Of a DNA stretch of 64,000 bases, positions 265-39,483 are shown piece after piece. The stretch covers positions 3,286,001-3,350,000 of the forward strand of contig NZ_CP033169.1 of the NCBI RefSeq assembly GCF_003691585.1, read 5' to 3'. The position numbers and the translations under genes are program-made. A model generated the notes under the pieces. It made no database searches. It saw only the letters and a program-made list of their open reading frames with translations, and was not told the DNA's origin. Positions within the stretch are counted from its first letter, which is position 1. Each line of letters starts with the position of its first letter. This stretch comes from Biomaibacter acetigenes. Lineage in GTDB: Bacteria > Bacillota > Thermosediminibacteria > Thermosediminibacterales > Tepidanaerobacteraceae.

Positions 265-1599
265 CTAGAATATTCCCAGATACTGGTCAAGTTCCCACTT
301 ATGCACCTGAATCCTGTAAATATCCCATTCGATGAGCTTGGCCTTCACGAAGTGCTCGTACACATGGGGTCCCAGGGCTTCCTTGATGACCTCATCCTGA
401 GACAGGTAATCCAGGGCTTCCTTCAGGCTGCCCGGCAGCATCTCAATACCTGCCTCCAGCCTTTCCACCGGTGTCATGTCATAAATGTTGTTGAAGGTCT
501 GGGGGCCGGGATCCATCTTATTCTTGATGCCGTCGAGACCGGCTTTGAGGATGACCGCCAGGGCAAGATAGGGGTTCGCCGATGGGTCCGGACTGCGAAG
601 CTCGATGCGGCTGGCATTGCCCCGGGCAGCCGGAACCCTCACCAGAGCGCTGCGGTTTTTGCCTGACCAGGATATATACACCGGAGCCTCATAGCCGGGG
701 ACCAGGCGCTTGTAAGAATTTATGGTGGGATTTGTTATGGCAGTAAATCCTTTGGCATGATGCAGTATTCCACCGATAAAATATTTTGCTACCTGTGACA
801 GGCCCGTTTCTTTATCGTTTTCATCATAAAAGGCATTGATGCCATCTTTGAAAAGAGAAAGGTGTACATGCATGCCCGAACCATTTTCCCCAAAAATGGG
901 CTTTGGCATAAAAGTGGCATAAAGCCCGTGCTCCGCGGCAATGGCCTTTGTAACAAATTTAAATGTAACGATATTGTCGGCGGTCCTTATGGCCCGGGTA
1001 TATTTAAAATCTATCTCATGCTGTCCGGGGGCCACCTCGTGATGGGATGTTTCCACATCAAAACCCATTTCCTGCAGAGCCAGCACTATATCCCTCCTGG
1101 CGTTTTCCCCCAGGTCTACCGGAGAAAGGTCGAAATAGCTGCCTTTGTCGTTGGTCTTCACCGTCGGATTGCCTTCTTCATCAGTCTGAAAAAGGAAAAA
1201 CTCCGGCTCCGGCCCGGCATGCAGCTCATACCCCATCTGGCGGGCTTCTTCTACCACTTTTTTGAGAATGCCCCGGGGACAACCTTCAAAGGGCTCGTTG
1301 TTGGAATCATAGATGTCGCACATGAGCCTGGCCTCAGCGCCTTTCCTGGGCTTCCAGGGCAGGATAGTAAAGGTGTCATAATCGGGCCTCAAATACATGT
1401 CCGATTCCTGAATCCTGGTAAAACCTTCTATGGATGAGCCGTCAAACATTATCTTGCCATCCAGGGCGTCTTCCAGCTGATCCACCGTTATGGTGACATT
1501 TTTGATTATTCCCAGAATATCGGTAAACTGCAGTCTGATGAATTTTACATCCAGTTCCTGAGCCTTTTGAAGAATATCGCTTTTAGTATACCTTGGCAT
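265..1599 (-). CDS. glnA: Glutamine synthetase type I-alpha (copy 1)
   Basis: Catalyses ATP-dependent ligation of ammonia to glutamate in the cytoplasm. The 444-residue length, the FDGSSIEGF motif, FMPKP and NGSGMHVH metal/ATP-site motifs and the [14 protein letters not shown] region are typical of dodecameric GSI. No adenylylation-type extension is apparent, and an Arg precedes the IQESDM motif, as in the feedback-inhibited GSI-alpha class of Firmicutes. The start is ATG at 1599, preceded by GGGAGGGG; the frame extends upstream but without a ribosome site. It is a close paralogue of the next gene and lies downstream of it on the same strand, behind a structured leader and an intrinsic terminator at 1711-1735. 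Confidence 0.96.
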
Positions 1600-18236: not shown

Positions 18237-18575
18237 ATAAAAAAAACACCCCGCCCTTTTGGGGCGAAGTGTGTCGCGGTGCCACCCAATTTTGACCTTG
18301 CGTAAAAGATGGTATCAAAAAAGGCACTTCTTCCTTAGGAAAAAGTGCCTTTTATAAGCTCAGCCACCTAAAGCAAAGCCTTCTCGTTCCAGGTACGGAA
18401 TGCAAGAGCATTCGATACCCTGTCCTTTTAACGGCGGACTTTCCGTCTCCTGCTACTTTTAGTTCGCATGGCTTCTCCCGGGCCCATTCAACGGCAACCG
18501 CGGCACCGGTCTTCCACCGCCACCGGCTCGCTTTGGCCTGAATTACCGCCTACTCTTCCCGATCATTGAATTTTC
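18237..18575 (-). ncRNA. T-box riboswitch leader of the trp operon (Trp specifier)
   Basis: On the minus strand the leader begins with GGGAAGAGTAGGCGG (AG/K-turn side of stem I), then GAGCCGGTGGCGGTGGA (stem I distal part), and a specifier loop GAATGGG with UGG at 18486-18484, the Trp codon. The T-box core GGGTGGCACCGCG is at 18287-18275 and pairs with the uncharged tRNA 3' end in the antiterminator. The terminator is an 11-bp stem followed by eight T (18268-18237). Uncharged tRNA-Trp should turn on trpE. An additional terminator-like hairpin lies at 18317-18353. Confidence 0.93.
18317..18353 (-). terminator. Extra terminator-like hairpin inside the trp T-box leader
   Basis: In the position of T-box stem III, AAAAGGCACTT pairs with AAGTGCC followed by six T on the minus strand. 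Most stem III hairpins lack a T-run; this one has all the features of an intrinsic terminator before the T-box core. Confidence 0.5.
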
Positions 18576-39036: not shown

Positions 39037-39100
39037 GTTTCTCCCTCCCCCCTTATAATTATATAAGATTTAAAAAGGAATTTCACTGGTAAATAATAAA

Positions 39101-39340
39101 AAATCTTTGAATCGAAATCCTCGGGCATAAAGCCCGAGTTATCAATGCGGTTGATTTTTTGAAATGCGTCACGGAAAGCCATTTATTAAGGAATATTTTT
39201 GCTTTCCTACGCATTTTAAAAAATCTTTGAATCGAAATCCTCGGGCATAAAGCCCGAGTTATCAATGCGGTTGATTTTTTGAAATGCGTCACGGAAAGCC
39301 ATTTATTAAGGAATATTTTTGCTTTCCTACGCATTATAAA
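39101..39340. repeat. Two tandem copies of a 120-bp element
   Basis: 39101-39220 and 39221-39340 are identical except for one base near the end. Each unit contains CTCGGGC-ATAAA-GCCCGAG and a longer stem (AAATGCGT...ACGCATTT enclosing GGAAAGC/GCTTTCC). The short hairpin followed by TTATCAAT recalls the right end of IS200/IS605 elements. Frames across the repeat have no ribosome site. It lies between the yqhV terminator and the wal operon. Confidence 0.9.
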
Positions 39341-39361
39341 AAAAAGCGGCAATTTGCCGCC
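39338..39361 (-). terminator. Intrinsic terminator after the yqhV-like gene
   Basis: GCGGCAA and TTGCCGC form the stem, followed by eight T on the minus strand. It lies 125 bp after the yqhV stop, just before the tandem repeat. Confidence 0.85.
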
Positions 39362-39446
39362 TTTCAAAGGGGGGATCGTTTTGTTGTTGCTGACTGCTTT
39401 CGAGTATTATTATAATTGATTATTATTAAGAAATTGTAACGGTTAT

Positions 39447-39463
39447 ATTACAAATATATTACA
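39447..39463 (-). promoter_or_regulatory. WalR-type box upstream of the wal operon
   Basis: On the minus strand TGTAAT-ATATT-TGTAAT, a perfect TGTWAH-N5-TGTWAH match, ~410 bp before the first gene of the wal operon and upstream of the tandem repeat and terminator. A lone TGTAAC on plus (39435-39440) is adjacent. Confidence 0.55.
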
Positions 39464-39483
39464 AATTTCTGGTTATATCGACA

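Follow-up and report, generated by a model that had tools for sequence, protein, structure and literature searches.

What is a nearly perfect tandem repeat with strong hairpins doing beside the walRK genes of Biomaibacter acetigenes? Here we address this question for a 64,000-nucleotide stretch of the genome (hereafter the window; contig NZ_CP033169.1, positions 3,286,001 to 3,350,000), in which an initial annotation had offered the readings of solo transposon ends, a guide-RNA-like remnant, or a repeated regulatory RNA in the leader of the wal operon. Our analyses indicate that the units very probably belong to a non-autonomous mobile DNA repeat that measures about 100-135 bp, encodes no protein, inserts at TA-rich and mostly intergenic sites, and duplicates the TA.

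The description of the array itself was upheld. Tandem Repeats Finder, applied to the window, returned one array at 39096-39343 (period 120, 98% matches, score 489), confirming two 120-bp units at 39099-39336, and the sole mismatch between them (T at 39216, A at 39336) is the one-base difference previously reported. The two hairpins per unit were likewise recovered: a CTCGGGC/GCCCGAG hairpin is nested within a larger hairpin, H1, and is accompanied by another long hairpin, H2. The pair (240 nt) folds at -82.3 kcal/mol compared with -50.5 +/- 4.3 for shuffled sequences (z -7.4; opposite strand, z -7.5), an energy that partly reflects pairing between the two copies.

Empty sites in related genomes, together with the other copies, place the natural borders at 39099-39216 for unit 1 (a member of subtype C, defined below) and 39219-39336 for unit 2, both on the plus strand and each followed by a TA. 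H1 spans about 39098-39160 in unit 1 and about 39218-39280 in unit 2, H2 spans 39162-39216 and 39282-39336, respectively, and the linker between them reads TTGAAA; the apical CTCGGGC/GCCCGAG hairpins within H1 lie at 39120-39138 and 39240-39258 on the plus strand. The TA at 39217-39218 joins the two units within the sequence TTTTAAAA, and another at 39337-39338 marks the right border. The TA at the left border (39097-39098) is a candidate target duplication by analogy with two clean locus pairs described below, the window site itself not deciding the matter.

Dispersed copies, subtypes and host range

The search for further copies that had been proposed as a check of the initial annotation recovered approximately 24 units at 21 places in the genome by blast and covariance models. 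The blast search yielded 18 matches to the unit, some spanning H2 together with the 3' arm of H1 (identity up to 92%) and others spanning H1 only (79-84%). Complete units of 100-135 bp are present at other places in the genome, and the covariance models identified 15 units of subtypes A and C and nine further units of subtypes B, D and E, a count of 24 that excludes antisense and marginal matches.

All subtypes share one architecture, consisting of a TA, H1, whose apical part varies, a short linker that mostly reads TTGAAA, H2 with a bulge on its 5' side, and a TA. Subtype A, the most numerous, is composed of AAAAAAGCTTT...AGCTTTTTT followed by an H2 with GGAAAGC/GCTTTCC, and is devoid of the CTCGGGC hairpin. 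In subtype B this hairpin is present (AAAAGAATCTTTGATT...CTCGGGC...GGTAGATTCT), followed by ACT-TTGT-GCGGC/GCCGC-AGT. In subtype C, represented by the window unit and by two copies in a genome of a second genus (L054 and L058 of G004), a B-like H1 is combined with an A-like H2, and variants D (L079) and E (L076, L078) follow the same plan with different stem sequences. A joint consensus fold of subtypes A, B and C recovered the H1 stem only, because H2 differs between subtypes, and two covariance models were therefore built.

Evidence for the two-hairpin form comes from the 23 aligned A/C units, in which 94.6% of cells are paired compared with 47-56% when the partner is slid, and in which six pairs distributed over both main helices are altered on both sides. 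Such compensatory changes support the formation of hairpins in single-stranded DNA or RNA, without telling which of the two is concerned. The units are devoid of terminal inverted repeats, as judged by comparing the first 15 bases of both ends, which match at only 5-7 positions.

Tandem pairs occur at three places (the window, L009 and L020), with every joint reading TTTTAAAA. A further array was observed at L079 (about 1440-1590, minus strand), where subtype D units are arranged as H1-H2-H1 and a second H2 is shortened to TGCGACTAA. Two pairs of copies with common flanks (L016/L017 and L018) look like segmental duplications from their sequences. At L018 (3188500-3198500 of the same genome) the two units have nearly identical upstream flanks of more than 100 bp, and further copies of this flank in G001, G004 and G009 identify it as a multi-copy sequence that often bears the element. 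A crude ORF check places most copies between predicted genes, while some overlap predicted ORFs.

The family has a narrow host range. Among 61 genomes, matches were confined to the B. acetigenes genome (G000), a genome of the same genus (G001) and two genomes of a second genus of the Tepidanaerobacteraceae (G004 and G009), and covariance-model searches over the family and class returned the same set of carriers. The matches in G009 occupy the same places as those in G061 (MAG JARRBK01, a Tepidanaerobacteraceae bacterium). When GTDB contigs were scanned for the subtype B H2 pattern, a Tepidanaerobacteraceae MAG and one Chlorobiaceae MAG were the only matches; the latter was rejected, as its fold is unlike that of the family and the match looks like chance. 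Spread by phages or plasmids was considered and set aside, with no match in phage records, plasmid records or viral contigs.

Filled and empty insertion sites

G001, G004 and G009 retain both flanks of the window locus and are devoid of the units there, and at further loci a unit present in one genome corresponds to an empty site in another. Empty sites on their own could also come from deletion in the relatives. Two locus pairs are informative to the base: at L052 (G001, filled) and L166 (G000, empty), and again at L042 (G009, filled) and L172 (G000, empty), the unit is flanked by TA on both sides and the empty site holds a single TA. The exact 2-bp duplication is thus seen at these two loci only. 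At L010 and L014a agreement with a TA duplication is off by one base within a homopolymer, no duplication is needed for an equally good or better fit at the window and L013 sites, and at sites beyond the two clean pairs the border is ambiguous by 1-3 nt. Of the claims made in the initial annotation, that of transposon-like units therefore stands as regards further copies in this genome and its relatives and precise insertion at sites that are empty elsewhere, and fails as regards ends of the IS200/IS605 type.

Several individual sites merit description. The unit of L052 is also present in G009 (L046) and G004 (L050) and is precisely absent from G000, where one TA is left at L166, which would represent either a precise loss of the unit or receipt of an empty allele. 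At L042 (1501-1603, G009) the unit lies directly 3' of a promoter-like TTGACT...TATGAT and ahead of a conserved stretch, so that a transcript from this putative promoter would begin with the unit. In both genera, a unit is found at one corresponding position (L062 in G001, L068 in G004), where it lies centrally within an imperfect inverted repeat (CACCTTCGTCGATATTTTT/AAAATATCGGCGAAGGT). A preference for terminators, suspected by eye, was not borne out by the counts (3 of 29 sites, compared with rates of 7% at intergenic TA and 12% at WTAWA control sites).

Candidate movers and the regulatory-RNA reading

Which enzyme could have moved these units? Their hairpins carry a side bulge and, like those at the ends of IS200/IS605 elements and of PATEs, are not accompanied by terminal inverted repeats. 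This would suit solo ends or a miniature, PATE-like derivative of an IS200/IS605 element that a Y1 TnpA would mobilise in single-stranded DNA form, and the genome does contain two Y1 transposase loci, one with an intact 173-aa frame assigned to this family. However, neither TnpA locus has hairpins (AACCACC.../GGTGGTT and others) that match those of the units. In IS608-type elements the guide and cleavage sequences lie outside the stem, and the stems of the units extend to the very ends, leaving no space for them. Furthermore, the IS200/IS605 family inserts without target duplication, but TA is duplicated at L052 and L042, the window site being ambiguous in this respect. We consequently regard this origin as highly improbable. 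The resemblance to the 3' region of TnpB guide RNAs, also raised in the initial annotation, gained no support either: the CTCGGGC hairpin on which it drew is missing from the commonest subtype, and the copies are solo units of 100-135 bp. The listed ORFs adjoining the window unit encode a peptidase-like protein, WalRK and an MFS transporter.

Duplication of TA is typical of, and therefore points to, enzymes of the IS630/Tc1-mariner type, and it suggested to us that the units might be MITEs of an IS630-type transposon formerly present in these genomes and since lost. IS630 loci are indeed present in G000 (one, broken) and G004 (one), but their ends carry repeats of the CTAGTAGA type, which differ from the units; the units themselves have no terminal inverted repeats, and no IS630 was found in the carriers G001 and G009. 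The loci at hand were on these grounds rejected as the source, and descent from a lost relative is possible but doubtful.

For the mobile repeat that we favour, we propose that each copy would form two adjacent hairpins, the outer arm of each reaching an end of the element, and that a transposase acting in trans could recognise these ends, which form hairpins, and insert the element at a TA. A tandem pair such as that in the window might then arise when a new copy lands on the TA closing an older one, or alternatively through duplication in place. This mechanism is put forward as a proposal, given that terminal inverted repeats are absent from the units and that neither the Y1 nor the IS630 loci examined yielded a transposase that matches them; the mover is lost, or belongs to a family other than Y1 and IS630. 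A bolder version, in which the units make up a class of small mobile DNA of their own, with ends recognised as hairpins and not as inverted repeats, a duplicated TA, a mover enzyme new to such elements, exchange of whole hairpin modules between subtypes and precise excision, seems to us rather unlikely.

A different account holds that the units are a repeated structured RNA or a bidirectional terminator, copies of which are kept for their action on neighbouring transcripts. The conserved pairing across the 23 A/C units is consistent with this, as are the terminator-like character of H1 on both strands, conferred by runs of A and T at the 5' and 3' feet of the stem, respectively, and the retention of some copies at the same place between species. 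Against it, most orthologous sites carry no copy, the units have no match in Rfam, and orthologous copies and their flanks have diverged to about equal extents (e.g. 0.92 for the element compared with 0.91 and 0.90), and therefore no constraint at the level of the host is seen. Selection for a host function was rejected on this last ground, and the combination of compensatory stems with flank-like divergence appears to fit a requirement of movement better than one of host function. The window pair moreover lies outside the probable leader of the wal operon, and we consider a regulatory role very unlikely.

Placement in that leader, as the initial annotation had it, is not supported, since the promoter-like site of the operon (GTGAAA-17-TATAAT, 39086-39058, minus strand) lies downstream of the element. 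Since this site sits between the element and the first gene of the operon, the tandem pair is, judging by sequence, probably upstream of the walR-operon promoter and outside its leader. The response regulator of the operon scores above the cut-off for YycF (WalR), and the best match of the kinase is WalK, below its cut-off. The remark that the units do not resemble a known riboswitch was borne out, with neither a riboswitch nor any other Rfam match at gathering score. Elsewhere in the window, a T-box leader was identified at 18257-18575 on the minus strand (Rfam RF00230, 98.7 bits).

Adjoining the pair, and upstream of the walRK operon, a stretch at 39340-39480 (minus strand) harbours a candidate sRNA of about 65-70 nt. 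The stretch is conserved in all eight of the family genomes compared and contains a perfect TGTAAY-N5-TGTAAY repeat, which we take to be WalR-box-like, a TATAAT, a nearly invariant unpaired AGCAACAACAAAACGATCCCCCCTTT, a GC stem and a T-run. Its sequence features suggest a small RNA gene equipped with a terminator of its own; the stretch has no Rfam match, and the presence of an element at the end of the terminator's T-run is specific to the B. acetigenes genome.

Comparison with known small repeats

Like MITEs, the units are short (100-135 bp), non-coding and dispersed, with a target duplication at two loci, and the family represents a variant because terminal inverted repeats are absent. Our literature search returned no repeats from this clade, and the family was not found in the searchable literature. 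The bcr1-bcr3 repeats of the Bacillus cereus group differ from the units in sequence, and the target duplication of bcr1 differs in being longer and of the TTTAT type. They nevertheless resemble the units as lineage-limited, intergenic, MITE-like repeats of Gram-positive bacteria, often situated in UTRs (PMC3446304). BOX elements of Streptococcus are likewise modular, dispersed, structured and sometimes arranged in tandem arrays, but they are built of boxA, boxB and boxC with a variable number of boxB and have terminal inverted repeats (PMC3049150), whereas here two hairpin modules swap between subtypes. RUP of Streptococcus pneumoniae is similar in length (107 bp), A+T-rich, intergenic, associated with a TA duplication and proposed to move in trans, and it differs in its 9-bp terminal inverted repeats and their match to IS630-Spn1 (PMC2229807, PMC3049150); the units have no such repeats, and no IS matching them was found.

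The closest resemblance is to CIR of Caulobacter and Brucella, a likeness of form, drawn from a review description (PMC2229807). CIR elements measure about 110 bp, have two hairpin arms joined by a linker and TA ends, have no terminal inverted repeats, are intergenic and comprise several sequence types (PMC2229807). The units share the approximate length, the two arms with a linker, the TA ends, the lack of terminal inverted repeats, the mostly intergenic location and the occurrence of several sequence types. CIR differs in belonging to another clade and in its conserved GANTC methylation sites (PMC2229807); the aligned consensus of subtype A contains no GANTC, and GAATC/GATTC is present in the stems of subtype B. 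Duplication upon insertion is listed as unknown for CIR (PMC2229807) and is seen at two loci here, indicating that a two-arm form without inverted repeats, as known from CIR, can leave a TA duplication on insertion.

Together, these comparisons correct a tempting regulatory-RNA reading for the wal operon in the window and extend the known small, mobile, non-coding repeats of bacteria by a new family, whose filled and empty sites in a few genomes allow the identity of the mover to be tested. In its form this family is closest to CIR, and in its target to RUP, ERIC and Correia repeats, which have TA ends (PMC2229807).
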